In this document: positions 3,837 to 26,532 of the stretch, piece by piece
Layout of the letters: every line of letters begins with the position of its first letter
Numbering within the stretch: position 1 is the first letter of the stretch
Notes under the pieces: generated by a model
Database searches by the model: none
Told to the model about the DNA's origin: nothing
Seen by the model: the letters and a program-made list of their open reading frames with translations, nothing else
From: Marinobacterium arenosum
GTDB lineage: Bacteria > Pseudomonadota > Gammaproteobacteria > Pseudomonadales > Balneatricaceae
DNA: 43,276 nt
Assembly (NCBI RefSeq): GCF_019795155.1
Contig: NZ_JAILYN010000040.1
Span: 1-43,276 of the forward strand
Direction of reading: 5' to 3'
Program-made: the position numbers and the translations under genes

Positions 3837-4511
3837 TTAAACCGGGATGACCGGCTCGAACTCCATCTCCGGCACGTGATCCGGCACGATCAGCTTGCCG
3901 GCGGTCTTGGCGACGATCTCCTCGACGGAGACACCCGGCGCGCGTTCTTTCAGGATGAAGGCGCCATCCTCGATCTCCAGGTAGGCCAGGTCGGTCAGTA
4001 CCTTCTTGATGCAGCCGGCGCCGGTCAGCGGCAGGCTGCATTCTTCCAGCAGCTTGGACTCACCGTGCTTGGAGGCGTGGGTCATGGTGACGATGATGTT
4101 GTCGGCACCGGCCACCAGGTCCATGGCACCACCCATCCCCTTGATCAGTTTGCCCGGGATCATCCAGGAGGCGATGTTGCCCTGCTGGTCGACCTCGAAG
4201 GCGCCCAGCACGGTCAGGTCGACGTGGCCGCCGCGGATCATCGCGAAGGACTCGGCGGAGGAGAAGATCGAGGCGCCGGTTACCGCGGTCACGGTCTGCT
4301 TGCCGGCGTTGATCATATCGGCGTCGACTTCGTCTTCGGTCGGGAAGGTGCCCATGCCCAGCAGGCCGTTTTCGGACTGCAGCATCACTTCCATCCCCTC
4401 CGGCACGTAGTTGGCGACCAGGGTCGGGATGCCGATGCCCAGGTTCACGTAGTAGCCATCTTTCAGTTCGCGCGCAACGCGCATTGCCATCTGTTCACGA
4501 GAGAGTGCCAT
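3837..4511 (-). CDS. scoB: 3-oxoacid CoA-transferase subunit B
   Basis: This is the catalytic beta subunit of a family I CoA-transferase, which moves CoA from succinyl-CoA to a 3-oxoacid such as acetoacetate. It has 224 residues, the usual length. SENGLLG at 46-52 contains the active-site glutamate (Glu47) that forms the acyl-CoA thioester in this family. An AGAGGGAA ribosome site precedes the ATG. It follows subunit A on the same strand after a 100-bp gap. Acetoacetate would be made by the fumarylacetoacetase at 25.1 kb, so an acetoacetate-activating role fits. 3-Oxoadipate (PcaIJ type) is the main alternative, and I cannot separate the two by eye. Confidence 0.88.
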   Translation of the reverse strand: MALSREQMAMRVARELKDGYYVNLGIGIPTLVANYVPEGMEVMLQSENGLLGMGTFPTEDEVDADMINAGKQTVTAVTGASIFSSAESFAMIRGGHVDLTVLGAFEVDQQGNIASWMIPGKLIKGMGGAMDLVAGADNIIVTMTHASKHGESKLLEECSLPLTGAGCIKKVLTDLAYLEIEDGAFILKERAPGVSVEEIVAKTAGKLIVPDHVPEMEFEPVIPV

Positions 4512-4611
4512 CTTTGTTCCCTCTAATCTCTGCGGGCCGGCCGTGCCGTCCCGGCTGATATCTGGTTTCAGTGCGGGCAGGTATAGGGCCTGCCATTCTG
4601 TTGAGCGGCGC

Positions 4612-5313
4612 TTAACCCTTGCGTACGGTACGCTGCTCGATACGCTTTTCGAACGTGCCCTGGATCAGGCGGTCGACGTAGATGCCCGGGGTGTGGATCT
4701 CGGACGGCTTCAGCTCGCCCGGCTCGACGATCTCTTCCACTTCCACCACGGTAATCTTGCCGGCAGTGGCGGCCATCGGGTTGAAGTTCTGGGCGGTGTC
4801 GCGGTAGACGACGTTGCCATAGCGGTCGGCTTTCCAGCCTTTGACGATGGCGAAGTCGCCGGTGATCGACTCTTCGAGGATATAGTTGCGACCGTTGAAT
4901 TCGCGCACTTCCTTGCCGTCGGCAACCGGCGTACCGTAACCGGTGGCGGTGTAGAACGCCGGGATACCGGCGCCGCCGGCGCGCATCTTCTCGGCCAGGG
5001 TGCCCTGCGGGGTCAGTTCCACTTCCAGCTCGCCGGCCAGCAGCTGCTGTTCGAACAGTGCGTTCTCGCCGACGTAGGAGGAGATCATCTTCTTGATCTG
5101 CTTATCGACCAGCAGGATGCCGAGGCCGAAATCGTCGACGCCGCAGTTGTTGGAAACCACGGTCAGGTTCTTGCTGCCCAGGCGCTTGATCTGGGCGATC
5201 AGGTTCTCCGGAATCCCGCAGAGGCCGAAACCGCCGGCGATGATGGTCATGCCATCTTCCAGTCCGGCCAGCGCTTCTTCGTAGCTGTTTACAACTTTGT
5301 CAAAACCCGACAT
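4612..5313 (-). CDS. scoA: 3-oxoacid CoA-transferase subunit A
   Basis: This is the alpha subunit of the family I CoA-transferase, partner of the next gene. It has 233 residues. The N-terminal segment at 24-38 contains the glycine-rich stretch [13 protein letters not shown] typical of the CoA-binding side. The start ATG at 5311-5313 is set by a strong GGAGG seven bases upstream. It is the first gene of the scoAB operon and is divergent from a LysR regulator, the usual arrangement for a locally controlled catabolic pair. The exact 3-oxoacid substrate is not determined by the sequence. Confidence 0.88.
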
Positions 5314-8760: not shown

Positions 8761-8850
8761 CTCAGGGCCGGTTTGGCTGGCTCAAGGCTTTTCAACTGGG
8801 CTCAGAGCTTTTGAATTGGGCTCAGGGCTGTTCGACCGGGCTCAGGCCCA
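8761..8850. repeat. Degenerate 20-bp tandem repeat at a gene 3' end
   Basis: Four successive 20-bp units start at 8761, 8781, 8801 and 8821, each beginning CTCA and ending in G-rich TGG or GGG. A partial fifth begins at 8841. The units from 8821 onward lie in the coding 3' end of the PaaC-like gene, the others beyond its stop. This looks like duplication of the gene terminus followed by drift. Confidence 0.75.
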
Positions 8851-9604
8851 GCCGGGTCAACATGTCGTCCACCTGGCCTTGCCACTGGGCCAGGCGGTAT
8901 TCATTGGTGTGCTTCAGCAGCCCGTAGCGGCGGAAACGGTCGTTGTGTTCGGAGTCGGCGCGACCGAAGCTGGCGGCGACCCGTGGATACCAGTATTCGA
9001 CTGCCGCCTGGGCGGCGCTGGTGCCGTCGCGCTCGATGGTAGCGGCCAGGCCGCGTTCACCCAGCTCGGCGTGACGGGCTTCGCCTTGGGCGATCTGCTG
9101 CATCAGTTCTGCCAGCGGTGCATAGGAGCACTGGCGCAGCTCTTTCAGCTGGATATTGGAGGCACTGCCCATCAGGGTGTTCATCACCAGCGAATCGGTC
9201 CAGCCTTCCAGCGGGTAGTGGAACACGTTCAGCCGCTTGTCACCGCCGATACGGCGGTTGCCCAGATCCAGCGCGCGGCTCAATCGGGCCGACCAGCAGT
9301 GGGAGGCCACATACAGGCTAGGGTCGACGCCAAAATCCTGCAGCAGGTCCAATACTTTCTCGGCGTGGTCGAACTTGTCGGCCACGATCTGGGCGGCCAC
9401 CTGGCGTTCGCGCAGCCCGGGGCCCTGATTGATCTGTTCGGCAAAACCGGCCGCGCCGGCCAGCTCGGAATCGGTGAATACCACCATCAGGCGCATCAGC
9501 TCGGAGCGGTAGCCGGCGGGCAGTTCCTCGCCGCGTTCGATCCGCTCGCCCTTGGCGACGCGCTCAATCAGTGTCTTATCGTCCATTGTCATAACTGGCC
9601 CCAT
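8822..9604 (-). CDS. PaaC-like (ferritin-like) oxygenase subunit
   Basis: This 260-residue, all-helical protein belongs to the PaaA/PaaC family of phenylacetyl-CoA epoxidase subunits. Of the di-iron ligands expected, Glu47 (DSELAG) and Glu175/His178 (GEARH) remain. The first ExxH is KFDH (Lys77, His80), and the third glutamate aligns with Thr136 when the shared W-x23-CSY spacing is used. This pattern fits a structural, non-catalytic subunit like PaaC. The start may be the ATG at 9592, which has GGGG six bases upstream; the coordinates give the longest form. Its likely partner is the PaaA-like gene at 15 kb. It is divergent from the flavodoxin gene and has its own terminator. Confidence 0.75.
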   Translation of the reverse strand: MGPVMTMDDKTLIERVAKGERIERGEELPAGYRSELMRLMVVFTDSELAGAAGFAEQINQGPGLRERQVAAQIVADKFDHAEKVLDLLQDFGVDPSLYVASHCWSARLSRALDLGNRRIGGDKRLNVFHYPLEGWTDSLVMNTLMGSASNIQLKELRQCSYAPLAELMQQIAQGEARHAELGERGLAATIERDGTSAAQAAVEYWYPRVAASFGRADSEHNDRFRRYGLLKHTNEYRLAQWQGQVDDMLTRLGLSPVEQP

Positions 9605-9919
9605 ATCTCGAAAATGAAAACCCTGTCCATCAGTCTACGAGCAACCGGGCGTATTCGCCGAACTTTCAGATCTCCGCGCTTATACTGGAGGTATGCGCGG
9701 ATTGGGCGGCGATTGCTGATAGCCGGTCGTGCCGATGTCGATCAGACTAACCCAAATGCACAAAGAGATACAAGATAAAGTTTTGATTGTGATCTTTTCG
9801 TATCGCTTTCTTTGTTGTATCGTTGCCGCTGTACTGATATTTGCCCGTCGGGCGAACCGTTACGTCAGGGGCGGTGTTGCGCGGCGGGTCATGCAAGATT
9901 GAATAAAGGCGGGAAATGA
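9605..9919. other. Divergent intergenic region, AT-rich
   Basis: This 315-bp gap lies between the PaaC-like gene and the flavodoxin gene. It must hold both promoters, but I could not identify convincing -35/-10 pairs or a palindromic operator. Confidence 0.4.
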
Positions 9920-10369
9920 ATGACTGATATCGCAATTCTGGTCGGCACCGAATCCGGCAATGCACAGATGGTGGCCGATGCGCTGCAGGAGGTGCTGGAG
10001 GGGATGGAGCACGAGGTGGTGCTGCATGAGGAGCCGGATCTGGATGAGATCGATTTTGCCAATCGCGATGTGGTGATCGTCAGTTGTTCGACCCACGGCG
10101 ATGGTGAGCTGCCGGACAATATCATTCCGCTGTGCGAAGCACTGCAGGAACAGCAGCCGAACCTGTCGCATATCCGTTACGGCGTTGTGGCGCTGGGTGA
10201 TCAGACCTACCACCAGACTTTCTGCCAGGCGGGTAAGGATGTCGATGCACTGCTGGCCGGCCTGGGCGCGGTACGGATCGGCGAGCGCTTCGAAGTGGAT
10301 GCCTGCACCCAGCCGTTGCCGGATGAGGATGCTCGCGAGTGGGTCAAGGGTTGGATAACCCAGCTCTGA
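9920..10369 (+). CDS. MioC-like flavodoxin
   Basis: This is a 149-residue single-domain flavodoxin. The FMN phosphate loop is GTESGNA at 9-15, and STHGDGELPDN at 58-68 forms the second FMN-binding loop seen in MioC and sulfite-reductase flavodoxin domains. It is a cytoplasmic one- or two-electron carrier. In this cluster it could carry electrons from the NADPH-dependent reductase at 12.4-13.7 kb to the di-iron oxygenase, but that is inference. ATG at 9920 has a GGGA upstream, and a strong terminator follows the gene, so it is probably transcribed alone. Confidence 0.85.
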   Translation: MTDIAILVGTESGNAQMVADALQEVLEGMEHEVVLHEEPDLDEIDFANRDVVIVSCSTHGDGELPDNIIPLCEALQEQQPNLSHIRYGVVALGDQTYHQTFCQAGKDVDALLAGLGAVRIGERFEVDACTQPLPDEDAREWVKGWITQL

Positions 10370-10397
10370 TCGCCACAGGCACTCGCTCGTAACGCAG

Positions 10398-10430
10398 AAG
10401 GCTGCCCGCACACTAGGGGCAGCCTTTTTT
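10398..10430 (+). terminator. Terminator after flavodoxin gene
   Basis: A 10-bp stem (10398-10407 with 10417-10426) runs into six T. It lies about 30 bp past the flavodoxin stop. Confidence 0.9.
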
Positions 10431-10661
10431 ATGTTCTTTGCAGTTTTCGGTCTTTTCAGCTGTCCAATGGCCGAGTCTTCGCCAGGCACGTCAGCTGAAA
10501 TCTATCACCGATAGCTTCATACCGTCAGGCTCCCTCGTCAAAGCCGTATTGGCATCGTCCGGTTGGTGGTGGGTTTGTCGAGATGATTAGGGTAAATTAG
10601 GGAAAATACCTATCTATTGAGAAGGGCGGGACTGGGTTCCGTCGTTGTAAGGAGTTGCTTG

Positions 10662-11282
10662 ATGAATGTCTATGCCATCGACGGGATTACCCCGGTGGTC
10701 GATCCGACCGCCTTTGTCCATCCGACCGCCGTGCTGATCGGCGATGTGATTGTCGGGCCGCGCTGCTATGTGGGGCCGGCGGCCTGCCTGCGCGGCGATT
10801 TCGGCCGGCTGGTTCTGAAGGAGGGGGCCAACCTGCAGGATACCTGCGTGATGCACGGCTTCCCGGGTACCGACACGGTGGTCGAGGAGGACGGTCATAT
10901 CGGTCATGGCGCGGTGCTGCACGGCTGCACCATCAAGCGTAACGCACTGGTGGGCATGAACGCGGTGGTGATGGACGGCGCGGTGGTTGGCGAATCGGCC
11001 ATCGTCGCGGCGATGGCGTTCGTCAAGGCCAAGGCGGAGATCCCGGCCCGCACGCTGGTGGCCGGTTCGCCGGCCAAGGTGATCCGCGAGCTGAGCGACA
11101 CCGATGTTGCCTGGAAGTCGGCCGGCACCCGCCAGTATCAGGATCTGGCGGTACGCAGCCTGACCACCATGGAGAAAGTGGAGCCGCTGACCGCGGTAGA
11201 GCCGGACCGCAAGCGGTTGCAGATCGATGCCGATGAGGTGATTCCGCTCTACAAGGTGAAAGAGCAGGAGCAGGCCAAATAA
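10662..11282 (+). CDS. paaY: PaaY-type gamma-carbonic-anhydrase-fold thioesterase
   Basis: This 206-residue protein has a left-handed beta-helix with hexapeptide repeats, followed by an alpha-helical tail. The putative zinc ligands are His65 (VMHG), His82 (GHG) and His87 (LHG). PaaY in phenylacetate degraders hydrolyses dead-end CoA thioesters formed from the ring epoxide or oxepin. Its presence suggests that the oxygenase in this cluster also acts on a CoA ester. The start ATG at 10662 is set by AAGGAG at 10649-10654; an in-frame TTG 45 bp upstream is less likely. No other paa catabolic gene is adjacent. Confidence 0.88.
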
Positions 11283-11319
11283 GGCCGGTTCGAAAAGATA
11301 CGGGATTAAAAAGAGTCTC

Positions 11320-11352
11320 GTAGGGTGGGCACAGACGACGTGCCCACCCTAC
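11320..11352. repeat. REP-like hairpin after paaY
   Basis: A perfect 13-bp stem GTAGGGTGGGCAC / GTGCCCACCCTAC with a 7-nt loop. No T-run follows on the plus strand, so it is more like a repetitive extragenic palindrome than a classical terminator. It may still protect or end the paaY transcript. Confidence 0.7.
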
Positions 11353-11416
11353 CGAGTAGCCTCTCGCTTGGCACTTGAAGCTTCACTAACCGGCTCTAAT
11401 CCGTGAAGAATCAAAC

Positions 11417-11707
11417 AAGAGCCGCTCAGGGAACCTGTGAATAAGTCCCTTATGTTCTCTGCAGGCTCTAGAACGGCCAGATGCGCGAAAGGCAGCGCAG
11501 CGGAATGACGCGTCTTTCCAAGCTGCCTGACAAAGCAGATGGCCGTTCTAGAGCCCGCCCTCCGGGGCTTGTGGAGCGACCAGAGCTCTGCGTTAACGAT
11601 TTTCGCCGGACAACCAGTACGCCTGTAATCGTTGCCTTGATCTCTGGTCGCTCCGAAAGCCAGAGGCCCAAGGGACTTGTTCACAGGTTCCTTAGCAAGC
11701 GGCTCTT
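11417..11707. repeat. MITE-like element with nested hairpins
   Basis: The 24-nt ends 11428-11451 and 11670-11693 are inverted repeats with two mismatches. A further 10 bp of inversion lies outside them (11417-11426 with 11698-11707). Inside are two side-by-side hairpins: 15 bp perfect (11465-11479 with 11540-11554) and 13 bp perfect (11573-11585 with 11642-11654). The right end supplies the stop codon and last codons of the DUF2889 gene. No protein is encoded. Confidence 0.7.
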
Positions 11708-12303
11708 TCATTTTCCGGGGTTGCTCTCACCAGCGGGATCAGCTCGGCGTTATCCCCCTCGTAAAAGTGCGGCCAGTGTTCGCGTACGACCGGGCCGTCG
11801 CTGGCCATGGTGTGACAGCTGTCCAGCATCGGCGGGCGCTGGTCACCGTCGGCCCAGTTTTCCTGCTGTTCGCGGGCCTGATGAGTGGCCTGGTAGGCGG
11901 TCGTCGCCACCGGGCCGAGCAGTTCCAGCAGGTGGGTACAGCCGTTGATGCCGCCGAACAGCTGACGCACCTTCTTGGTGAAGCCGGGCGCGATCTGCAG
12001 GCCGATCAGCTGTTTATAAGTCTCGGTGATCTGCGGGCAGATCCTGAACGGGGTGTAATCCATCGCCGCTTCGACGTCGAGGATATTCAAATCCAGATCG
12101 ACGGTGATCCGGATCGACATGCCGTGTAGCGGCTCGCCTACCGGGATAATGCCGTCGTTACGTTCTTTGCACTCCATCGCAAAGCTCTTGGTATCGGTCA
12201 GGTGGCCTTCGATATCCCACAGGCCATCGGTGCGCTGGAAGCCTTCGCAGCGAACCTGGCGGGTGTGCTGCAGGCTGCGCGGTTGCGGAGTGGAAAGGGG
12301 CAT
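11692..12303 (-). CDS. DUF2889 domain protein
   Basis: This 203-residue protein begins MPLSTPQPRSLQHTRQVRC and contains DGLWDIEGHLTDTKS near 26-40, the recognisable start of the DUF2889 family. No catalytic motif is known to me. It follows the ferredoxin-type reductase on the same strand after 72 bp, with a GC-rich hairpin (12331-12351) between, and is probably cotranscribed. DUF2889 genes occur next to aromatic catabolic genes, and this context agrees. Its C-terminus (ENERAAC) is encoded by the end of the MITE-like element, so the native tail may differ in relatives. Confidence 0.78.
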   Translation of the reverse strand: MPLSTPQPRSLQHTRQVRCEGFQRTDGLWDIEGHLTDTKSFAMECKERNDGIIPVGEPLHGMSIRITVDLDLNILDVEAAMDYTPFRICPQITETYKQLIGLQIAPGFTKKVRQLFGGINGCTHLLELLGPVATTAYQATHQAREQQENWADGDQRPPMLDSCHTMASDGPVVREHWPHFYEGDNAELIPLVRATPENERAAC

Positions 12304-12375
12304 GGAACGAACAATTCTCCTGAAACTGAACAGGGCCGCGATGCGGCCCTGTGATGGTAGATACGGGCCTGCGGC

Positions 12376-13689
12376 TTAATCGAGCAGCGCCAGCATCTCG
12401 TCGATACGGTTGAACTTCTCGCGTGGCTTGCCGTTCTCGGCGCGCGCCACTTCGGCCTGGTTGATCACCTGCCATTGCTCGAACGAGACCTGTTTGACGC
12501 CGCGCTGCTGCAGCAGGCTGTCGATGGTGCCATAGCCGCCACGCTCGCCGGCCGGCGGGTTGGCTTCCAGGTCGGCGATGATCTGCTTGGCCACCGCCAT
12601 CGAGTCGCTGCGGTTGGCCGGGATGACCCCCTGCGGGCCGCGCTTGCACCAGCCGGCGGTGTAGACGCCCGGTTCGACGACGCCGTCCTGGTTCTGGATG
12701 ATGCCGCGCTGCTGGTCGAACGGCATGCCGTCGATCGCTTCGCTGCGGTAGCCGATCGCCGGAATCACGGTCTGAACCTCCAGCTCGAAGGTTTCGCCGG
12801 TCGGCTGGGCACGGCCGTCGACCACCTGGTTCTTCTCCAGCCGCAGGCTGCTGACCTTGCCGTTGTCGCCGAGGATCTCCAGCGGCGAAGCGCAGAACAT
12901 CAGGTGCAGGCGGACCGGCTTGCTGTCGGCATCGTTGCTGGTATAGCTGCGCAGGGTGTCGAGGTTCTTCTCGATGGTGCGGGCAGCTTTCGGGTCCAGC
13001 CCCTCCGGCAGGCTGTCCGGCAGTTGGGCCGGATCGACCAGTGCCACGCAGCGCTCCAGTTCGCCGAACTCGCTCAGCTCGGCATTGGTGAAGCTGGCTT
13101 CCAGCGGGCCGCGTCGACCGATCAGGTAGATATCCTGAACCGGTGAAGCCGCGATCGACTGCTGGGCGGCGGCGGTGATATCGGAGCTATCCATCTCGGC
13201 GGAGGACTTGGCCAGTACGCGGGCGATATCCAGCGCCACGTTGCCGTTGCCGATGATGGCGATGCCGCGGCTGTTCAAATTCGGAGCCAGGTCGGCCTTG
13301 TCCGGGTGGCCGTTGTACCAGGCGACGAACTCGCCGGAGCCGTACACGCCGGTCAACTCTTCGCCGGGAATGCCGAGTTTGCGGTCGCAGAGCGCGCCGA
13401 TGGTCAGGGCGACCACGTCATAGCTGGCCTTCAACTCCTCGTAGCTGAGGTCCTGGCCGATGTTGACGTTGCCGACGAAGCGTACATTGTCGCGTTCGAA
13501 GGTTCGCTCGAACTGGCGCACGATGTTCTTGGTGCCCTGATGGTCGGGCGCCACGCCGGCGCGAACCAGGCCGAACGGAGTCGGCAGGCGATCAAAGATG
13601 TCAACCTGGGCATCGGCCACTTTCTTGGACAGCATATCGGCGATGTAGCAGCCGGACGGGCCACTGCCCACAATTGCGATATTGATCAT
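12376..13689 (-). CDS. Adrenodoxin-type ferredoxin/flavodoxin NADP+ reductase
   Basis: This 437-residue flavoprotein resembles mitochondrial adrenodoxin reductase and mycobacterial FprA. VGSGPSGCYIAD at the N-terminus binds FAD, FGLVRAGVAPDH is the conserved family segment, and GNGNVALDIAR binds NADP(H). It would pass electrons from NADPH to a ferredoxin or flavodoxin; no ferredoxin gene is present, but a flavodoxin lies 2 kb away. The start ATG at 13687-13689 (MINIAIVGS) has GGAGA upstream; a longer in-frame start is less likely. Position between PaaX and DUF2889 genes, on the same strand, suggests one operon serving the oxygenase. Confidence 0.85.
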   Translation of the reverse strand: MINIAIVGSGPSGCYIADMLSKKVADAQVDIFDRLPTPFGLVRAGVAPDHQGTKNIVRQFERTFERDNVRFVGNVNIGQDLSYEELKASYDVVALTIGALCDRKLGIPGEELTGVYGSGEFVAWYNGHPDKADLAPNLNSRGIAIIGNGNVALDIARVLAKSSAEMDSSDITAAAQQSIAASPVQDIYLIGRRGPLEASFTNAELSEFGELERCVALVDPAQLPDSLPEGLDPKAARTIEKNLDTLRSYTSNDADSKPVRLHLMFCASPLEILGDNGKVSSLRLEKNQVVDGRAQPTGETFELEVQTVIPAIGYRSEAIDGMPFDQQRGIIQNQDGVVEPGVYTAGWCKRGPQGVIPANRSDSMAVAKQIIADLEANPPAGERGGYGTIDSLLQQRGVKQVSFEQWQVINQAEVARAENGKPREKFNRIDEMLALLD

Positions 13690-13792
13690 CTCTAGGTCTC
13701 CAGACGTTGCCTGCACCGGCGCAGCGGTGCGTTGTTATTGTCGTTCGGTGCGGTGCATGGCAGCGGCGGGGAGCAGCGTCGCGACCATGGGA

Positions 13793-14713
13793 TTACAGCC
13801 CACCAAAGCGCTTGTAAAAACGGGGAGCCGGTTCCGGCAGGGCGCCGTCCGCGGTCTCCTGGGTTTGCGTCAGGTGTTGCTCCGCCCGGGCCTGAATCAG
13901 CCGGTAGATATTCCGGCACAGGATTCGGGCGGAGGTACCGGCCCAGTCGGCCGGCAACAGTTTTTCCGGTAGCAGCGGATCGCGCAGCAGCACTCGGCGA
14001 TAGTGATGGATCAGCAGCGTGCGCAGCTGGAAACACTGTTCAGGGGCCAGCGCGTCGGTGCTTTCCACCGCCCGCAGAATCGGCCGGAACTGGTCCAGGA
14101 AGGCCTGATAGTCTTCCGCCAGCTGCTGCAGGTTCCAGCACTCGTGTACCAGCTGCTTCAGCGGCGTCGAGGTCTGGCTGCCGACCAGTTGCGACTTCAT
14201 ATGGATGGTGTCGCCGGTCACGCAGAGATCCTGCAGGGTGTTGTTGACCTCCTGCATGTCGGCCATCGGGTGAGCCATCACCCCCGGCGCGATATTGCCG
14301 AAGCCCTGCCATTCCAGTTCTTTCTTGACCACCTTGCGCAGCTCGTTGTCGAGCTGGGTGGTAATCACCATATCCCACTGGCCGTCCCACTCCGGGTAGA
14401 GCTCGGCATAGATCCGCTTGAAGGCGCTCTCGAACCGGCGCCGGCCGGTATCGGTCAGGCTGTAATAGCTGCGCCGGCCCACCTGGGTCGAGGTCAGCCA
14501 GCCCTCCTTGGTCAGCCGGAATATCGAGGTCCTTACCAGTCGCTGGTTGAGGCCCAGCGGTTCAAGCAGTTTTATCAGGCTGCCGAGCCAGACGGTGCCG
14601 CCGCGCGGCGAGATCGCATCACCGTAGATGGTGATGATCAGTGAGCCGCCACGAATTGGGCGTTGTGCCTGGAACTCTTCGACGAGCTCTTCTATACAAC
14701 GGAGTCTGGTCAT
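13793..14713 (-). CDS. paaX: PaaX-family transcriptional repressor
   Basis: This 306-residue protein has a PaaX-like N-terminal winged helix (GTVWLGSLIKLLEPLG followed by LVRTSIFRLTKEGWL) and the PaaX central and C-terminal domains. PaaX represses phenylacetate genes until phenylacetyl-CoA binds. Here it is divergent from the PaaA-like gene, and a dyad overlapping that gene's promoter (14878-14921) is its likely operator. The start is the ATG at 14711-14713 (MTRLRCIEE). The ligand is probably an aryl-CoA but need not be phenylacetyl-CoA. Confidence 0.85.
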   Translation of the reverse strand: MTRLRCIEELVEEFQAQRPIRGGSLIITIYGDAISPRGGTVWLGSLIKLLEPLGLNQRLVRTSIFRLTKEGWLTSTQVGRRSYYSLTDTGRRRFESAFKRIYAELYPEWDGQWDMVITTQLDNELRKVVKKELEWQGFGNIAPGVMAHPMADMQEVNNTLQDLCVTGDTIHMKSQLVGSQTSTPLKQLVHECWNLQQLAEDYQAFLDQFRPILRAVESTDALAPEQCFQLRTLLIHHYRRVLLRDPLLPEKLLPADWAGTSARILCRNIYRLIQARAEQHLTQTQETADGALPEPAPRFYKRFGGL

Positions 14714-14863
14714 TAAAACTGTAACACGTTGGTGTTGATGGGACTCGCACATCGGACCGTACCGTCGGAGAGGTCCGCAAGTAGCGCGAATTCTACGGAC
14801 AATCGACTATACCGGCAACTTGGCCGGGCTGGGCGTTGATTGCCGAGCGCTACCACCAAACAG

Positions 14864-14921
14864 TTGACATGGAAGGAATGATACACTAATTTTGATCTCG
14901 GCGTCGAATTTTGTGTCACAT
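14864..14921 (+). promoter_or_regulatory. Promoter of the PaaA-like gene with overlapping dyad
   Basis: A consensus -35 TTGACA (14864-14869) is followed after 17 bp by TAATTT (14887-14892). A dyad ATGATACAC (14878-14886) / GTGTCACAT (14913-14921), with 7 of 9 positions symmetrical, covers the -10 and the expected start point. This is where a repressor such as PaaX would block RNA polymerase. Confidence 0.6.
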
Positions 14922-15008
14922 AAAGCGCAGGATTGGGAGAGCGGCGCTAATTAGGTTTGCCTTAATAAATAGTGCGATTTCTCGAACTTAGATCGGAGAT
15001 AACGGTTT

Positions 15009-15791
15009 ATGAAGACCTACGACAAAGGTGACAAGCTGCCAGAACACTACAAAGAGTGTCTGATCAACCTGATGACTTTCCAGGCTGACTCCGAGTACGC
15101 CGGTGCTCAGCGAGTTGCAGAAAACCATCGTTTCGCGCCGCGTCCGGAAGAAGCTTACCGCCTGTCCAAGAAAGTAATGGAAGAGATGGGTCACGGTTAC
15201 TACATCTGGAACCTGCTGCGCGATCTGGATGTGGACGTTGACGCCCGTCTGCACGAGCTGGCTTCCAACCCGGAAAACCCGGATCCGAAGAAAGTAAACG
15301 TGATCAACGGTTTCCGTAAGGAAAACTGGTCTGCGTTCTTCGAGTGCTGGGAAGACGTGGCACTGTTCTCCACCGTGGTAACGCCGGCGGCGGTGGCCTT
15401 CCTGGGGCAGTACCGCGAGTGTTCCTACCTGCCGTGGGCACGCGTAAACGTACGTATCCACAAGGAAGAGCACGGTCACCTGGCATTCGGTGTCTGGGCG
15501 TCCAAGCGTTGCATCGAGTTCGGTGGCGAAAAGACCCGTGAATTCATGCAGCAGCGTATTCCGAAATTCATGCAGATGGGGCTGGGCTTTTACGGTCGTC
15601 CGTCCAAGGGCGACAAGAAGTCCGAGATGTTCGATGTCTACCATGAATACGGCCTGAAGGTGAAAACACCGGAAGAGCTGCAGGCTGAATACCTGGAGCT
15701 GCTGGAAGACCGTCTGGGCGATATCGGCTTCGAACTGCCGCAGGGCGTTGAAGCGGACTACGATATGCGTATCGGTTACGGCGTAGAGTAA
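15009..15791 (+). CDS. PaaA-like di-iron oxygenase catalytic subunit
   Basis: This 260-residue ferritin-like protein is related to PaaA of phenylacetyl-CoA epoxidase. A full carboxylate di-iron site can be assigned: Glu29 (DSEYAG), Glu59 and His62 (EEMGHG), Glu115 (WEDVAL; Glu112 is the alternative) and Glu154/His157 (EEHGH). YRECSYLPWAR at 135-145 matches the RCSY region of PaaA. It is shorter than PaaA. GGAG precedes the ATG. It forms an operon with the 131-residue gene 25 bp downstream. It probably inserts oxygen into an aromatic, perhaps CoA-bound, substrate. PaaB, PaaD and PaaE are missing, so electron delivery and substrate are open. Confidence 0.72.
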   Translation: MKTYDKGDKLPEHYKECLINLMTFQADSEYAGAQRVAENHRFAPRPEEAYRLSKKVMEEMGHGYYIWNLLRDLDVDVDARLHELASNPENPDPKKVNVINGFRKENWSAFFECWEDVALFSTVVTPAAVAFLGQYRECSYLPWARVNVRIHKEEHGHLAFGVWASKRCIEFGGEKTREFMQQRIPKFMQMGLGFYGRPSKGDKKSEMFDVYHEYGLKVKTPEELQAEYLELLEDRLGDIGFELPQGVEADYDMRIGYGVE

Positions 15792-15816
15792 CTATATAGA
15801 TAAAGGAGTACCCACT

Positions 15817-16212
15817 ATGATCGTTCCATCTCCGGATAAGCTGGTCGAAGCCAATGCCAGTGTGCTTGCCAAGTTCGGTTACGAGCCTTTTGGCGGGGCC
15901 GAAGAGGATTGGTCGGGTATGTGGGCGCTGCTGAAGGGGGACTTCGCGTCAGCGGAGTTCCCTGATGTGCCTGATTATGCCGACCTGACGCTTTCCCAGC
16001 AGGAAGCGGCCAAAATCTACATGCGTCGCCGCCTGATCGCCGACCGGTTCTTTGAAGAGTGTCGCATGATCCAGGCCGATCTCTATAAAGGTATCGATAC
16101 CGAACAGGTGGAGCGCTATACCCTGGCGCGTGATGCCTATGAAGACAGCGTGAACCATTTCGGCGAAGCGCGTGAGAAGGTCGCCAGCGTGCTGCGAGGC
16201 ATCTACTGGTGA
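15817..16212 (+). CDS. Unrecognised partner protein of the PaaA-like subunit
   Basis: I do not recognise this 131-residue protein. It has no signal peptide or membrane segment and looks mostly helical and acidic, with tryptophans near the start (EEDWSGMWALL) and the extreme end (GIYW). A charged helix near 70-80 (IYMRRRLIADRFFEE) follows. It starts 25 bp after the PaaA-like gene with a strong AAGGAG, and a hairpin follows it, so the two form a tight operon. By position it is the best candidate for a small structural or coupling subunit in place of PaaB. That is inference from context. Confidence 0.7.
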   Translation: MIVPSPDKLVEANASVLAKFGYEPFGGAEEDWSGMWALLKGDFASAEFPDVPDYADLTLSQQEAAKIYMRRRLIADRFFEECRMIQADLYKGIDTEQVERYTLARDAYEDSVNHFGEAREKVASVLRGIYW

Positions 16213-16539: not shown

Positions 16540-16768
16540 TTTATGGCTATTGCGATTTGTTCTTGTGCAAGATCATCATGAATTGATACAAATAACGACC
16601 AAAGCATTAGCTGTTTTGTAGCACGAGTTGAGTTAAGGTCTGCCCGGAAGGCAGATCGAGGGTGCGGACCGCCGCCGGCGGGATGGCCCACCGACACCAT
16701 AAAAACAACAGATAACAACAGATGTCCGCGTGGATTGCGCGTGTCCTACAAGCCAGGAGAAGAAACCA

Positions 16769-17794
16769 ATGATAAGAAGAACCTTCCTGAAAACCGCTGC
16801 CGCTGTATCCCTGGGGTTGACCCTGTCTGCTGGTGCGATGGCGGATAGCGTCATGCGCGTTGCCAGCTGGCTGCCGCCGACCCACCCGCAGAACGCGGTG
16901 GTCTTCCCGACCTGGGGTAAATGGATCGAGGAAGCGACCGAGGGCCGCGTCAAGCTGGAGATCGAATACGGCATGGGCCACCCGAAGACCATGTTCGAGC
17001 TGGTCGAAGATGGGGTGGTGGATGCCAGCTGGAGTTTCCACGGTTATGTTCCGGGTCGTTTCAAGCTGACCCAGGCGGTTGAGCAGCCGCTGCTGGGCGC
17101 TGACGCCGAAGCGGCATCGGTGGCGCACTGGCGGGTCAACGAAAAGTACTTCGCCAAGGCCAACGAGCACGACGGCCTGGTGCTGGCGGCGCTGTTCACC
17201 CACGGTCCGGGCCAGATCCACATGGCCCAGCCGATCAACTCGCTGGCAGATCTGAACGGCAAGAAAATCCGCCTGGGCGGCGGTGTCCAGGGTGTGATCG
17301 GCGAGCGGCTGCACGTCACTGCAGTGGGTGCGCCGGCACCGAAGGTCTACGAGATGATGCAGCAGGGGGTGATCGATGGCGTGTTCATCCCGATGGGCGA
17401 GCAGAAGACCCTGCGCCTGAACGAGGTGGCCCGCAACGTGGTCGCACTGCCGGGCGGCATGTACCTGGGTAGCTTCTCGATCTTCATCAACCCGGACTTC
17501 CTGGACAGCCTGAGCGAGAAAGACCGCCAGGCGGTGATGAGCGTCTCCGGCGAGAAACTGTCTGCCCTGGCCGGTCGTGCCTGGGACGAGGGTGACAAGG
17601 CCGGTTACGAGGCCGCCAAGGAAGCGGGCGTTAACGTCATGATGGTTGGCGAGAACGATCCGATCGCGAAAGAGTTCCGTGAAGTGGCCAAAGGCATGGA
17701 TGACGCCTGGATCGAGAGCGTTGCCGACCGTGGCGTCGATGCGAAAGCGGCTCTGGAAGAGCTGCGCTCCATCGCACGCAACTACGGTGAGTAA
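16769..17794 (+). CDS. dctP: TRAP transporter substrate-binding protein DctP
   Basis: This is the periplasmic solute receptor of a TRAP uptake system, 341 residues. The N-terminus MIRRTFLKTAAAV is a twin-arginine type signal (RRTFLK), so it may be exported folded through Tat. The mature protein has the usual DctP features, including LNGKKIRLGGGVQG near the middle. The ATG is set by AGGAGA at 16755-16760. It starts the dctPQM operon, followed by uspA. TRAP receptors mostly bind organic acids with a conserved arginine. Next to aromatic genes, an aromatic acid is the likely ligand, but this is inference. Confidence 0.88.
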   Translation: MIRRTFLKTAAAVSLGLTLSAGAMADSVMRVASWLPPTHPQNAVVFPTWGKWIEEATEGRVKLEIEYGMGHPKTMFELVEDGVVDASWSFHGYVPGRFKLTQAVEQPLLGADAEAASVAHWRVNEKYFAKANEHDGLVLAALFTHGPGQIHMAQPINSLADLNGKKIRLGGGVQGVIGERLHVTAVGAPAPKVYEMMQQGVIDGVFIPMGEQKTLRLNEVARNVVALPGGMYLGSFSIFINPDFLDSLSEKDRQAVMSVSGEKLSALAGRAWDEGDKAGYEAAKEAGVNVMMVGENDPIAKEFREVAKGMDDAWIESVADRGVDAKAALEELRSIARNYGE

Positions 17795-17805
17795 GGAGTC
17801 TCCGT

Positions 17806-18321
17806 ATGGCGTTTAGTGCCTGGCTGACAGCGCACTACGAAGAGAAGGGGCCGGTCAAGTGGCTGGCCTTTTCTCTGGAGTTGGTGGCTGCGGTAACCCT
17901 GTTCCTGCTGATGTTGCTGACCTGTGCAGACGTAATCGGCCGTTACTTCTTCGATAACTCGGTCGATGGCACGACCGAATTGACCGAGATCGGCATCGCG
18001 ATTCTGATCTTTGCCGAGATGCCGGTCATCACCTGGCGCGGTGGTCATGTGGTGGTCGACGTGCTCGATCGCATGTTGGGCAGCACGATGCTGAAAGTGC
18101 TCGGGCTGCTGTCGGCATTCCTGATCTCCACGTCGCTCTATTTTCTGGCCGTGCGCATCTATGAACTTGCGGAGCGTTCGTTGCGCCGTGAAGAGGTCAC
18201 CGAATACCTGCTGATTCCGGTTGGCCTGGTGGTTCAGTACATCGCGGTGATGAGCTGGATCACGGCCGGCGCCATGATCACCTATGGCGTCTACCGGCTG
18301 CTGTTCGCGTCTGACGATTAA
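17806..18321 (+). CDS. dctQ: TRAP transporter small membrane subunit DctQ
   Basis: This 171-residue inner-membrane protein has four hydrophobic segments and the DctQ signature LTCADVIGRYFFD near 36-50. It bridges the periplasmic receptor and the large permease. AAGGAG lies seven bases before its ATG and only eleven bases separate it from dctP, so the genes are cotranscribed. Confidence 0.9.
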   Translation: MAFSAWLTAHYEEKGPVKWLAFSLELVAAVTLFLLMLLTCADVIGRYFFDNSVDGTTELTEIGIAILIFAEMPVITWRGGHVVVDVLDRMLGSTMLKVLGLLSAFLISTSLYFLAVRIYELAERSLRREEVTEYLLIPVGLVVQYIAVMSWITAGAMITYGVYRLLFASDD

Positions 18322-18351
18322 AACGATAACAACGCTACAGGTATTTTCAGT

Positions 18352-19680
18352 ATGACAACTGCGTTGATCGGCTTTGGGATTCTGCTAATCCTGATCGTGG
18401 TGGTACGGATCCCGATCGCATTTTCCATGGGGATCGTCGGTTTCTTCGGTTTTGCCGCGACCATGGGGCTGACTTTTGACAATATTGGCGACTTTCGCTG
18501 GACCGGCCCACTGTCGATGGCCGCCAAGCGGGTGGTGGACACCGCGCAGGAGTATGGCCTGTCGGTGATTCCGCTGTTCATCCTGATGGGCAACCTGGTC
18601 ACCAAATCCGGGCTGTCCCACGAGCTTTACCGGGCATCCAATGCATTTCTCGGCCACCGCAAAGGCGGCCTGTCGATGGCCACGGTGGTCGCCTGCGGTG
18701 GCTTCTCGGCGATCTGCGGTTCCAGCCTGGCGACCTCGGCCACCATGGCCAAGGTGGCGATGCCGCCGATGCGTAAATACGGCTATGCCGATTCGCTGGC
18801 TACCGCTTCGATCGCCGCCGGCGGTACTCTGGGGATCCTGATCCCGCCCAGCGTGATCCTGGTGATCTACGGCCTTCTGACCGAAACCAGTATCCGTGAA
18901 CTGTTTGCAGCCGGCTTTATCCCTGGGTTCCTCGGCATCCTGCTGTACCTGGCGGCGGTGCGCTACGTGGTCTGGCGTAACCCGGAAGCCGGTCCCTGCG
19001 GCGAGAAGCTGGACTGGCCGGAGCGTATGCAGGCGCTGAGAGGCGTCTGGGGGGTACTGATCCTGTTCACTGTGGTGATGGGCGGTATCTACCTGGGGAT
19101 CTTCACGCCGACCGAAGCGGCCGGTATCGGGGCCGGCGGTGCCTTCGTGATTGCACTGTCGCGTAAGACGCTGACCTTCAGTAGCCTGTTCGACATTCTG
19201 ACCGACACCGCCCGTACCTCGGCGATGCTGTTCTCGGTGTTGATCGGCGCGCTGATCTTCTCCAACTTCATCAACCGTGCAGGGCTGCCGGCAGATCTAT
19301 TGGAGTTCGTCACCGGCCTGAATGTGTCGCCGATGATGGTGATCTTCGCGATCCTGCTGATCTACATCGTGCTGGGGATGGTGTTCGAGAGCCTGTCGAT
19401 GATGCTGCTGACGGTGCCGATCTTCTTCCCGCTGGTGCAGAGCCTGGGCTTCGACCTGGTTTGGTTCGGCATCGTGGTGGTGGTGGTGACCGAGATCAGC
19501 CTGATCACCCCGCCGGTGGGTATGAACGTGTTCGTGCTCAGCGCGGTGCTCAGGGATATCAAGGCATCGACCATTTTCAAGGGGGTGACCCCGTTCTGGT
19601 GCGCGGATATCGTCCGGCTGCTGCTGATTACGCTGATCGCACCGATCTCGCTGATCCTGCCGGAACTGCTGTACCGATAA
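18352..19680 (+). CDS. dctM: TRAP transporter large permease DctM
   Basis: This 442-residue permease has about twelve membrane segments and uses the sodium or proton gradient to move the solute delivered by DctP. Typical stretches include GGTLGILIPPSVILVIYG, FTPTEAAGIGAGGA and TPPVGMNVFV near the C-terminus. It starts 30 bp after dctQ with only a weak ribosome site, so translation may be coupled to dctQ. A strong terminator follows at 19691. Confidence 0.92.
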   Translation: MTTALIGFGILLILIVVVRIPIAFSMGIVGFFGFAATMGLTFDNIGDFRWTGPLSMAAKRVVDTAQEYGLSVIPLFILMGNLVTKSGLSHELYRASNAFLGHRKGGLSMATVVACGGFSAICGSSLATSATMAKVAMPPMRKYGYADSLATASIAAGGTLGILIPPSVILVIYGLLTETSIRELFAAGFIPGFLGILLYLAAVRYVVWRNPEAGPCGEKLDWPERMQALRGVWGVLILFTVVMGGIYLGIFTPTEAAGIGAGGAFVIALSRKTLTFSSLFDILTDTARTSAMLFSVLIGALIFSNFINRAGLPADLLEFVTGLNVSPMMVIFAILLIYIVLGMVFESLSMMLLTVPIFFPLVQSLGFDLVWFGIVVVVVTEISLITPPVGMNVFVLSAVLRDIKASTIFKGVTPFWCADIVRLLLITLIAPISLILPELLYR

Positions 19681-20515: not shown

Positions 20516-21478
20516 ATGGCGAAGAAGCCCTTTGCGTCCTCGGCGGACCTCGGTGTAAAAACCGAAACTCTGGAAATCCTGGGTGATGGTATCTATGCCC
20601 TGACGGCGGAAGGTGACCCCAACATCGGTGCGGTGGAAGGGGAGGACTTTATCGTCGCCTTCGAAGCCCGTGCGACGCCGAAAGCTGCCAGCGACTGGCT
20701 GGAGAGACTGCGCGAGCACACCGACAAGCCGATCAAGTACCTGGTGCTGTCCCACTACCACGCCGTACGGGTGCTGGGTGCCTCCGCGTTCAACGCCGAG
20801 TCGATCATCGCCCATGAGAAGACCAAGTTCCTGATCGAAGAGCGGGGCATGCAGGACTGGGCCAGCGAATATGGCCGTATGCCGCGCCTGTTCCGCGAAC
20901 CGGACGGTATTCCGGGACTGACCCATCCGGACATCGTGTTCAACGACCGGCTGGAGATTCCGCTGGGCGGTGATCGTGGAAACCTGGTGCTGGAATACTG
21001 CGGCCGTGGCCACACTGCCGGCGATATCTGCGCCTGGATTCCGAAACAGAAAGTACTGTTCGCCGGCGATCTGGTCGAGGCGGAAGCGGCGCTTTACACC
21101 GGCGATGCGTTCCATTTCGACTGGGCCAGCAACACCCTGGACAAGGTCAAGGCCTATGAGGCGGAAGTGCTGGTCGGCGGCCGTGGTGCGGTCGCCCGTG
21201 GCCGAGAGGAGGTCGATGCGGCGATCGAGCAGACCCGTGGCTTCCTGAACGGCATGATCGAGAAGGTCGGTGAAGTACACAAGCGTGGCGGTACGCTGAA
21301 GGAGGCGTTCGAAGCGACTCACGAGCACCTGGCGCCGAAGTTCGGCATGTGGCCGATCTTCGAGCACTGCCTGCCGTTCGACGTGCAGCGCCTGTGGGAC
21401 GAGTTCGAAGGTGTCGACTGGCCGCGTATCTGGACCGCCGAGCGGGACCAGGAGGTTTGGGATCAGCTGCAGGACTGA
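20516..21478 (+). CDS. Variant metallo-beta-lactamase-fold hydrolase
   Basis: This 320-residue protein has the metallo-beta-lactamase fold, but the metal motif is altered. Where HxHxDH is expected it has HYHAVR (His80, His82), losing the Asp-His pair. His166 in GRGHTAGD and Asp185 in LFAGDLV are kept. It may bind one metal or use other ligands such as those in FEHCLPFD near the C-terminus. AGGAAA precedes the ATG. It shares a promoter element with the monooxygenase and TRAP genes, so a step in the same aromatic route, perhaps ester or lactone hydrolysis, is plausible. The reaction is unknown. Confidence 0.8.
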   Translation: MAKKPFASSADLGVKTETLEILGDGIYALTAEGDPNIGAVEGEDFIVAFEARATPKAASDWLERLREHTDKPIKYLVLSHYHAVRVLGASAFNAESIIAHEKTKFLIEERGMQDWASEYGRMPRLFREPDGIPGLTHPDIVFNDRLEIPLGGDRGNLVLEYCGRGHTAGDICAWIPKQKVLFAGDLVEAEAALYTGDAFHFDWASNTLDKVKAYEAEVLVGGRGAVARGREEVDAAIEQTRGFLNGMIEKVGEVHKRGGTLKEAFEATHEHLAPKFGMWPIFEHCLPFDVQRLWDEFEGVDWPRIWTAERDQEVWDQLQD

Positions 21479-22890: not shown

Positions 22891-24567
22891 ATGCTGAACA
22901 CATACACTTTTCCAGAATTTGATTATGTCCGCTCTGCGGACCAGGATGCACAACAGCCGGTGAAACATCCGGTGGTTGTGATCGGTGCGGGCCCGATCGG
23001 GATGGCTGCGGCCATCGACCTTGCCATCCATGATGTGCCGGTGGTGGTGCTGGATGACAACAACACCGTTTCCGTTGGCTCCCGCGCGGTCTGCTACGCC
23101 AAGCGGTTCCTCGATATCTCCGACCGGCTGGGCGTTGGCCAGCGGCTGGTCGACAAGGGTGTGACCTGGAACGTCGGCAAGGTGTTCTTCGAGAGCGAGC
23201 AGATCTACAGCTTCAACATGCTGCCGGAAGAGCACCACCGTCGTCCGGGCTTCATCAACCTGCAGCAGTACTACCTCGAAGAGTACATGGTCGACCGGAT
23301 CAACGAGCTGGACAAGGCCGACCTGCGCTGGAAGAACAAGCTGGTAGCAATCGAACAGGGCGACGACGAGGTCACCCTGACGGTGGAGACCCCGGAAGGT
23401 CCCTATACCATCAAGGCCGACTACGTGATCGCCTGTGATGGTGCCAACTCCAAGACCCGCGAAATGTGCGGCCTGGAATCCAAGGGCCAGATCTTCCACG
23501 ACCGCTTCCTGATCGCCGACGTGGTGATGGATCCGAAGAAATTCCCGCCGGAGCGCTGGTTCTGGTTCAACCCGCCGTTCCACAAGGGCCAGTCCACGCT
23601 GTTGCACCGCCAGGCGGACAACGTATGGCGAATCGACTTCGACCTGGGTTGGGATGCCGATCCGGAAGAGGAGAAAAAGCCGGAAAACATCATCCCGCGG
23701 GTGCGTGCCTTCCTCGGCCAGGATGTCGAGTTCGAGCTGGAGTGGGCGTCGGTCTACACCTTCACCTGCCGCCGGATGGACGAGTTCCGTCAGGGCCGGA
23801 TCTTCTTCGCCGGTGACGCGGCCCACCAGGTATCGCCGTTCGGTGCCCGGGGTGCCAACTCCGGTATCGAGGATACCGACAACCTGACCTGGAAACTGAA
23901 GCTGGTGATGGACGGCCAGGCGCCGGCCAGCCTGCTGGACAGCTACTCCGAAGAGCGTACCTTCGCGGCGGACGAGAACATCCTCAACTCGACCCGCAGT
24001 ACCGACTTCATCACGCCGAAAAACGAAGCCAGCCGCACCTTCCGTGACGCGGTGCTGAAACTGGCCAAGGACTATACCTTTGCCCGTCCGCTGGTCAACA
24101 GTGGTCGTCTGTCGGTGCCGCCGTTCCTGACCGAGTCGCCGCTCAACACTGCCGATCGCGACCGCTTCGACTGCAAGGTGGTGCCGGGTGCGCCCTGCAC
24201 CGACGGCCCGGTCATGCGCGATGGCAAAGACGACTTCCTGCTGACCTGCCTGGGTAACCGGTTCAACGGCGTGCTGTTTGTCGAAAACCGTACCGATCTG
24301 GATAAAGAGACCCTGGCGGCACTGGCGGAGTTGGCCCAGCAGCCGGTGCCGGTCAACACTTTCCTGATCGCCAGCCATGAGATGGACCTGGCGCTGCCGG
24401 AAGGCGTCGAGTTGCTGGTCGACAAGTATGGCGTGATCAAGGACCGCCTGGATGCCCGCGCCGGCACCTTCTACCTGACCCGTCCCGATCAGATGGTAAC
24501 CGCCCGCATGCGTAAGTTCGACAAGGCGGCGGTGGTTGAGGCCCAGAACAAGGCCATGGGCAAGTAA
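22891..24567 (+). CDS. Class A flavin monooxygenase (aromatic hydroxylase)
   Basis: This 558-residue enzyme belongs to the FAD_binding_3 family that includes MhpA (3-(3-hydroxyphenyl)propionate hydroxylase). GAGPIG at 32-37 is the Rossmann FAD motif, CDGAN near 182 is the DG motif, and FAGDAAHQVSPFGARG from about 306 is the GD motif. Such enzymes hydroxylate phenolic rings using NAD(P)H and oxygen. With FahA and MaiA downstream, a 3-hydroxyphenylacetate-type substrate giving homogentisate, or 3-hydroxybenzoate giving gentisate, is possible; the sequence does not decide. The ribosome site is weak. DUF2783 follows after 24 bp. Confidence 0.85.
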   Translation: MLNTYTFPEFDYVRSADQDAQQPVKHPVVVIGAGPIGMAAAIDLAIHDVPVVVLDDNNTVSVGSRAVCYAKRFLDISDRLGVGQRLVDKGVTWNVGKVFFESEQIYSFNMLPEEHHRRPGFINLQQYYLEEYMVDRINELDKADLRWKNKLVAIEQGDDEVTLTVETPEGPYTIKADYVIACDGANSKTREMCGLESKGQIFHDRFLIADVVMDPKKFPPERWFWFNPPFHKGQSTLLHRQADNVWRIDFDLGWDADPEEEKKPENIIPRVRAFLGQDVEFELEWASVYTFTCRRMDEFRQGRIFFAGDAAHQVSPFGARGANSGIEDTDNLTWKLKLVMDGQAPASLLDSYSEERTFAADENILNSTRSTDFITPKNEASRTFRDAVLKLAKDYTFARPLVNSGRLSVPPFLTESPLNTADRDRFDCKVVPGAPCTDGPVMRDGKDDFLLTCLGNRFNGVLFVENRTDLDKETLAALAELAQQPVPVNTFLIASHEMDLALPEGVELLVDKYGVIKDRLDARAGTFYLTRPDQMVTARMRKFDKAAVVEAQNKAMGK

Positions 24568-24591
24568 CGGATAACAAGAGAGAACAGACCA

Positions 24592-24795
24592 ATGAGCAAA
24601 CTGATTACTGAGCCGAACCTGCCGCGCCCGGACGATTTTTACCAGGAGCTGACCGACCTGCACCGTGACCTGACCCCGGAGCAGACTGCCGATGTAAACG
24701 CCCGGCTGATCCTGCTGCTGAGCAACCATATCGGTGACCAGCAGGTGCTGTCCGAAGCGATGAGAATCGCTCGCGAGCATATCCCGGCCGATTGA
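24592..24795 (+). CDS. DUF2783 small protein, monooxygenase partner
   Basis: This 67-residue protein matches the DUF2783 family pattern: PDDFYQELTDLHRDLTPEQ followed by NARLILLLSNHIGD and an EA-rich helix. It is cytoplasmic, with no known catalytic residues. It lies 24 bp after the flavin monooxygenase and before a terminator. DUF2783 genes are typically found beside this type of monooxygenase, so an accessory or stabilising role is likely but unproven. Confidence 0.82.
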   Translation: MSKLITEPNLPRPDDFYQELTDLHRDLTPEQTADVNARLILLLSNHIGDQQVLSEAMRIAREHIPAD

Positions 24796-24814
24796 TGCCA
24801 ACGGGGTAAAAACG

Positions 24815-24846
24815 ACAGGCCCACCTGAGTGTGGGCCTGTGCCGTT
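24815..24846 (+). terminator. Terminator after DUF2783 gene
   Basis: ACAGGCCCAC (24815-24824) pairs with GTGGGCCTGT (24831-24840), 20 bp past the stop codon. The following sequence is only moderately T-rich. Confidence 0.75.
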
Positions 24847-24849
24847 TCT

Positions 24850-26465: not shown

Positions 26466-26489
26466 TCCGCACCCGTACGCGGCTTATCG

Positions 26490-26508: not shown

Positions 26509-26532
26509 CTCTGTTTTGAACAGGAGTGAACG

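Follow-up and report, generated by a model that had tools for sequence, protein, structure and literature searches.

A PaaA/PaaC-like protein pair with a flavodoxin and an adrenodoxin-type reductase is a putative phenylacetyl-CoA monooxygenase in Marinobacterium arenosum

We analyzed a 43,276-nucleotide stretch of Marinobacterium arenosum DNA (NCBI RefSeq assembly GCF_019795155.1, contig NZ_JAILYN010000040.1, positions 1 to 43,276; here called the window) that encodes a PaaA-like protein (PaaA2), a PaaC-like protein (PaaC2) and a 131-amino-acid (131-aa) protein (ORF131). Comparative sequence analysis makes it probable that these genes belong to a phenylacetyl-coenzyme A (phenylacetyl-CoA) monooxygenase that is not orthologous to PaaABCDE, replaces it and is fed by NADPH through an adrenodoxin-type reductase and a flavodoxin. 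This reading is based on the position of paaC2 and a flavodoxin gene within a phenylacetate (paa) gene cluster, the absence of PaaB from this genome and from 43 of 50 others with PaaA2, and a ferredoxin-like gene that stands in for flavodoxin beside paaA2 in another lineage. The original prediction, made from the window alone, had proposed a distinct oxygenase served by an NADPH reductase and a flavodoxin. Phylogeny, gene neighborhoods and the lack of PaaB support this proposal; its aryl-CoA substrate is something that we, too, infer.

Ten proteins of the window were scanned against Pfam and NCBIfam. The scans bore out the flavodoxin, adrenodoxin-type reductase, DUF2889 protein, PaaX and PaaY that had been recognized between two proteins of family PF05138 (PaaA_PaaC; Pfam cutoff, 28.5 bits). 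ORF131 had been overlooked. The features are as follows.

8822-9604, minus strand: PaaC2, PaaC-like partner with Lys77 and Gly146 at two ligand positions (PF05138, 74.2 bits)
9605-9919: paaC2/flavodoxin intergenic region with three GATAC sites, starting at 9767, 9799 and 9816
9920-10369, plus strand: short flavodoxin, putative electron donor (PF00258, 103.5 bits)
10650-11282, plus strand: PaaY-type thioesterase, open reading frame (ORF) start at 10617 (TIGR02287, 335.8 bits versus a cutoff of 319.6)
11692-12303, minus strand: DUF2889 protein (PF11136, 150.6 bits)
12376-13716, minus strand: adrenodoxin-reductase/FprA-type NADPH reductase (E value of 4.8e-91 to 1cjc)
13793-14752, minus strand: PaaX-type repressor (TIGR02277, 335.7 bits versus a cutoff of 264.55)
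14753-15008: divergent paaX/paaA2 intergenic region with GATACA at 14880-14885
15009-15791, plus strand: PaaA2, PaaA-like putative catalytic subunit (PF05138, 80.6 bits)
15817-16212, plus strand: ORF131, conserved helical protein directly downstream of paaA2, candidate extra subunit
16730-19680, plus strand: tripartite ATP-independent periplasmic (TRAP) transporter genes, candidate uptake system (DctP by PF03480; the next two genes named by eye)

The remaining pathway genes in M. arenosum

The M. arenosum genome (4.80 Mb in 115 contigs, 99.95% complete) encodes three PF05138 proteins, two in the window and one on a contig that we call C30. PaaB (PF06243) has no match anywhere in it, in line with what had been read from the window, and the best genome-wide match to the PaaC model TIGR02158 scored 21.6 bits against a cutoff of 133.35, leaving no PaaC above the cutoff. 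No paaABC set, and with it no full paaABCDE cluster of which the window genes might be paralogues, was found in the rest of the genome. PaaE and PaaD are not in the window, and no genome-wide search was made for either.

The reported absence of PaaK and of the ring-opening genes proved to be an artifact of the window. C30 carries paaK, paaJ, paaI, paaH, paaG, paaF and a second paaC2 (78% identical to the window copy), followed divergently by a second flavodoxin gene and paaN. The PaaK, thiolase, PaaI, PaaH, PaaG, PaaF and PaaN_2 proteins of C30 all score above their curated cutoffs.

PaaA2 and PaaC2 form separate clades

Against the PaaA equivalog TIGR02156 (cutoff, 280 bits), PaaA2 and PaaC2 scored only 68.3 and 71.5 bits, respectively, and both fall outside it. 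PaaA2 had no match to the BoxB model TIGR03225 at an E value of 0.001, and PaaC2 reached 23.8 of the 499.1 bits set for that model. We compared both proteins with canonical PaaA and PaaC from the window's order and Escherichia coli and with BoxB from genomes that carry PaaA2. In the resulting 76-row tree, PaaA2 (support, 100/99), PaaC2 (99/99), PaaA (100/100), PaaC (100/100) and BoxB (100/99) each formed one clade, so that PaaA2 and PaaC2 stand apart from the known proteins, in keeping with the distinct oxygenase of the original prediction. PaaA2 joined PaaA (95/83), with branch lengths of 2.6 and 2.4 changes per column; as long branches meet at this point (the program issued a warning), this deep grouping deserves less confidence than the clades themselves. 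A first tree of 81 rows (138 rows thinned to 79, plus two from E. coli) gave PaaA2 a support of only 68; it included one strongly divergent row and a BoxB row in the wrong frame. The rows L117_BoxB, L060_C2 and L023_C2 and two duplicate E. coli rows are not in the final tree.

PaaA2 retains five of six metal-ligand positions

The ligands of BoxB are E120, E150, H153, D211, E240 and H243, according to an excerpt of PMC5489048. In our alignment, PaaA and BoxB share the ligand columns E-E-H-D-E-H, and PaaA2 reads E-E-H-T-E-H. PaaA2 thus keeps five of the six positions (E29, E59, H62, E154 and H157), with Thr125 in place of the helix-E Asp (D126 in PaaA, D211 in BoxB) in all 53 orthologues, and it lacks the six-ligand pattern of a PaaA-type catalytic subunit (E, ExxH, D, ExxH). 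All six di-iron ligands had been assigned before; five of these assignments stand and the sixth, the helix-E Asp, falls. The helix-E position and the last ExxH are 29 residues apart in PaaA, PaaA2 and BoxB alike. Nearby, residue 115 is Glu in only 26 of the 53 orthologues and is therefore no conserved ligand, D116 pairs in the alignment with PaaA D117 and not with the ligand D126, and residues 117 to 130 of the window's PaaA2 include no acidic residue.

Eight positions are invariant across the 53 sequences: E29, K55, E59, H62, D116, Thr125, E154 and H157. The lysine bridge of PaaA includes Lys68 and Glu49, as described in part of PMC4498308. Lys68 is kept as Lys55 of PaaA2, and Glu49 is replaced by Val36 (both in 53 of 53). 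The PaaA2 proteins of 25 aligned relatives are 63 to 94% identical to the window copy.

PaaC2 and ORF131 as putative partners

Among 28 PaaC2 sequences, the Glu ligand position at Lys77 holds Lys in 27 and Arg in 1, the first ligand position has Glu 23 times and Gln 5 times, and the first His is retained in 23. In the six alignment rows shown, Gly or Ala occupies the helix-E position. The earlier reading had named Lys77 and Thr136 as the lost ligands; Lys77 holds, and the alignment moves the second loss to Gly146. The predicted single-chain structure (predicted local distance difference test score [pLDDT], 82.1) best matches chains of the PaaAC complex (3pvr_A; E value of 1.4e-9; template modeling score of 0.83 by query). 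Judged by its sequence, with Lys replacing the bridging Glu, PaaC2 is probably a metal-free partner.

ORF131 belongs to no Pfam or NCBIfam family and adjoins PaaA2 in 41 of 53 loci. Its single-chain model has four helices (pLDDT, 81.5), for which Foldseek found nothing at an E value of ≤0.001. Three sequence matches to the PDB were at chance level (best E value, 0.33), and no fold was assigned. ORF131 may stand in for PaaB.

Distribution of the system

We scanned a collection of species genomes with PaaA2 as a single query, an approach that reaches close relatives only. The scan returned 52 loci from Oceanospirillaceae, Rhodocyclales, Rhodospirillales and other groups, as well as from Obscuribacterales-type records. 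Counting the window as well (53 loci, several of which end at contig borders), the neighbors include ORF131 in 41, PaaX in 34, the reductase in 33, DUF2889 in 9 and PaaY in 8. The neighborhood of paaA2 is conserved among related loci. A paa catabolic gene was labeled by permissive BLAST in 15 of the 53 loci, with weak labels in L046 and L057.

Whole-genome searches covered 50 of the 52 PaaA2 genomes (L024 and L051 were left out); completeness is given for none of them, and many are metagenome-assembled genomes, making absences soft. PaaB is missing from 43, and the named isolates among these include two Terasakiella, two Roseospira, three Azospirillum and Phenylobacterium sp. J367. A PaaK-family match is present in 40 of the 43 PaaB-less genomes (above the cutoff in 29) and, at an E value of ≤1e-60, in 47 of all 50 (above the cutoff in 35). 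PaaN_2 exceeds its cutoff in 30 genomes, a flavodoxin is found at an E value of ≤1e-15 in 39, and PaaC2 scores >250 bits in 39, the next best match reaching 92 bits. In these 39 genomes, paaC2 lies within 4 kb of PaaN in 22, within 12 kb of PaaK in 22 and within 20 kb of PaaA2 in 15. Three Azospirillum genomes without PaaC2 nevertheless have flavodoxin, PaaN and PaaK. In Pontibacterium, contig C19 carries PaaB next to a paaK, and contig C12 carries a further paaK at a distance of about 5 kb from paaC2, which looks like the coexistence of two routes.

In loci from Phenylobacterium (L046:8759-12274) and Rhodoferax (L049:8775-11599), the neighbors of PaaA2 are flavodoxin- or reductase-like and crotonase-like, and the genomes have neither PaaC2 nor a PaaK-family match. 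These loci are perhaps a subtype with a different substrate.

Within the window's own order, 44 of 293 sampled genomes have a PaaA2 match, and all of these except M. arenosum itself are only 23 to 28% identical. PaaB occurs in 42 of the 293, not including M. arenosum; of the 43 further genomes that match PaaA2, 41 have it, so that sampled close relatives with a PaaA homologue carry the canonical type. In the same family, PaaB was found in 7 of 11 other genomes. The pattern fits horizontal spread or differential loss. A plasmid collection gave 11 records at 24 to 29% identity, none of which is PaaA2.

Flavodoxin or ferredoxin as the putative electron donor

Residues 12 to 445 of the reductase align to 1cjc (E value as listed above) and to FprA (1lqt; E value of 4.8e-86), which places it in the adrenodoxin reductase/FprA family. 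The window's flavodoxin, a PF00258 member, scored slightly under two NCBIfam cutoffs (152.2 of 160 bits for NF005989 and 144.9 of 158 bits for MioC). Among the 39 genomes with PaaC2, 33 have a flavodoxin gene no more than 1.5 kb from paaC2. Of the six others, five are Obscuribacterales-type, and the sixth (G316) has the two genes on separate contigs.

In ten Obscuribacterales-type loci, a 78- to 94-aa ORF of one ferredoxin-like family follows paaA2, or follows paaC2 behind paaA2; the one member scanned by Pfam is a 2[4Fe-4S] ferredoxin. PaaC2 lies in between in five of these loci, and none was found in the others searched. Both L045:7045-8856 and L055:9977-11003 exemplify PaaA2 with such a gene, with or without PaaC2 between.

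Two Azospirillum loci have a PaaE-like reductase near paaA2 (Fer2-FAD-NAD by Pfam in the one scanned). One of the two also encodes a protein that matches AurF weakly, at 22.8 bits and below the cutoff of 29.6. The AurF-like protein and the Fer2-FAD-NAD reductase near Azospirillum PaaA2 (L104:15311-16402, minus strand; L103:6187-7254, plus strand) are possibly another oxygenase or another electron donor.

Candidate regulation by PaaX

The motif GATAC[AG] occurs in all 12 intergenic stretches compared, of which eight precede paaA2 and four separate paaC2 from the flavodoxin gene, against a background of 0.34 per 300 bases, and each of the four paaC2/flavodoxin gaps holds three or four sites. Most of these stretches are orthologous and not independent. 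GATACA is descriptive only. The shared motif suggests that the paaA2 and paaC2 clusters are under joint control, with PaaX as the candidate regulator acting at these sites.

The 15-letter E. coli PaaX operator consensus was rejected as a guide: it reached at best 12 of 15 letters in the 12 regions, and 70 of 2,000 background stretches scored at least 12. A promoter scan of the paaX/paaA2 gap, which gave two minus-strand sites versus a shuffle mean of 0.3, was not used.

Proposed mechanism and alternatives

In the proposed scheme, ring activation in aerobic phenylacetate catabolism would be carried out not by PaaABCDE but by a PaaAC-like oxygenase core made of PaaA2 and PaaC2. PaaK, encoded on C30, would supply phenylacetyl-CoA. 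Electrons would pass from NADPH to the adrenodoxin-type FAD reductase, then to flavodoxin and on to the metal site of PaaA2, which would activate O2 and place one oxygen atom on the ring; the product would most likely be 1,2-epoxyphenylacetyl-CoA. The later steps would follow the known pathway through PaaG, PaaN plus a separate hydratase, PaaJ, PaaF and PaaH, with regulation by PaaX. PaaC2 would serve as the probably metal-free partner, and ORF131 might replace PaaB.

Several findings weigh against this scheme. The helix-E Asp is Thr in every orthologue, so oxygenase chemistry is not to be assumed. PaaC2 was not found in 11 of the 50 searched genomes, including the three Azospirillum, and a PaaK-family match is missing in 3; PaaB is present in 7, and some have extra PF05138-like matches. 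In 20 of 53 loci, some of them truncated by contig ends, PaaA2 has no reductase gene next to it. BoxB exceeds its cutoff in 9 of 12 PaaA2 genomes tested, so other CoA-ester routes are present there, and PaaK can feed anaerobic routes too. A further enoyl-CoA hydratase on C30 scored 395.9 of 396 bits for its best model and 180.3 of 300 bits for the oxepin-CoA hydrolase model; as it falls under both cutoffs, the oxepin-hydrolyzing enzyme is left without a gene assignment.

The same fold and electron chain might act mainly on another aryl- or acyl-CoA, such as hydroxyphenylacetyl-CoA, with the paa genes serving the lower steps only. The window cluster lies upstream of a hydroxyphenyl-acid-type FAD monooxygenase, the Phenylobacterium and Rhodoferax loci combine PaaA2 with a crotonase-type gene in the absence of PaaC2 and of a PaaK-family match, and in the account given in part of PMC4498308 neither PaaA nor BoxB accepts the substrate of the other. 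We nonetheless consider this unlikely, given that paaC2 and the flavodoxin gene cluster with paaK, paaG, paaH and paaJ both on C30 and in L106, that nearly all PaaB-less genomes have a PaaK-family match and that the M. arenosum genome has no homogentisate dioxygenase by PF04209.

The invariant Thr and the change of the bridge Glu49 to Val would also suit a PaaA2 that is no oxygenase and has another redox or binding role, for instance, epoxide back-reduction or the handling of O2 or peroxide. This is improbable: the other five ligands and Lys55 are unchanged in all orthologues, and the genomes would be left without any known phenylacetyl-CoA ring-activating enzyme, judged by PaaB and PaaC. Even less credible is that the pair are paralogues of PaaA and PaaC that have decayed and lost their function. 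The ligand losses and the low scores with the PaaA and PaaC models could be read in that way, but the high identity among relatives, the many invariant positions and the conserved neighbors speak against decay.

Beyond the monooxygenase proposed for M. arenosum, the data may describe a second, non-orthologous class of CoA-ester aromatic-ring monooxygenases, an idea that we hold at somewhat less than even chances. Its members would have a five-ligand, PaaA-fold site with a helix-E Thr, a flavodoxin or a 2[4Fe-4S] ferredoxin depending on the lineage, a metal-free PaaC2 that is missing from some lineages, an ORF131 subunit and a full phenylacetate pathway without PaaB.

Other genes in the window

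Before the paaC2-paaA2 cluster, two neighboring ORFs (3837-5313, minus strand) resemble, by eye, the subunits of a 3-oxoacid CoA-transferase. The product of 20516-21478 (plus strand) resembles, by eye, a metallo-beta-lactamase fold; NCBIfam gave nothing for it at an E value of 1e-40, and its family was found near PaaA2 in 16 loci. At 22891-27171 (plus strand), an FAD monooxygenase (NF006002, above the cutoff) precedes genes whose products resemble, by eye, fumarylacetoacetase and maleylacetoacetate isomerase. A homogentisate route was considered and rejected, as the homogentisate dioxygenase C-terminal domain (PF04209) is absent from the genome.

Significance and relation to known systems

PaaA and PaaC serve to mark phenylacetate catabolism in genomes. 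A 2026 survey keeps them in this use and has a partial class with PaaA and PaaC only, in the sections of PMC13186573 consulted; those sections make no mention of flavodoxin. Searches of open-access full texts, a scope that mostly excludes subscription papers, found no description of a PaaA2/PaaC2/flavodoxin system. If our reading is true, rules based on PaaABCDE would call incomplete a pathway that works in various Oceanospirillaceae, Rhodocyclales, Rhodospirillales and Obscuribacterales-type genomes. Such a system would moreover let one ask, as in an experiment set up by nature, what replaces the helix-E carboxylate in the di-iron site of an arene epoxidase and how either a flavodoxin or a ferredoxin can feed one type of enzyme.

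Chains of an adrenodoxin reductase or FprA and a flavodoxin serve cytochromes P450, and the PaaA2 locus resembles them in having such a reductase next to a short flavodoxin. To our knowledge, no such chain feeds a relative of PaaA or BoxB, and the searches of open-access full texts found none.

BoxB/BoxA has a related fold and ligand pattern and, like the proposed system, a separate reductase in place of a bound PaaE-type one (PMC4498308, in part). BoxB needs no structural subunit, and some PaaA2 lineages likewise lack PaaC2. However, PaaA2 forms its own clade, BoxB retains Asp211, and BoxA is not a reductase of the adrenodoxin type. With PaaABCE (and PaaD), the system shares the PaaA/PaaC-type fold pair, five of six ligand positions, the bridge lysine and linkage to paaK, paaG, paaF, paaH, paaJ, paaX and paaY. 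It differs in the separate clades of PaaA2 and PaaC2, the helix-E Thr for Asp, a genome without PaaB, the adrenodoxin-type reductase and flavodoxin genes that adjoin those of PaaA2 and PaaC2, and the extra ORF131.

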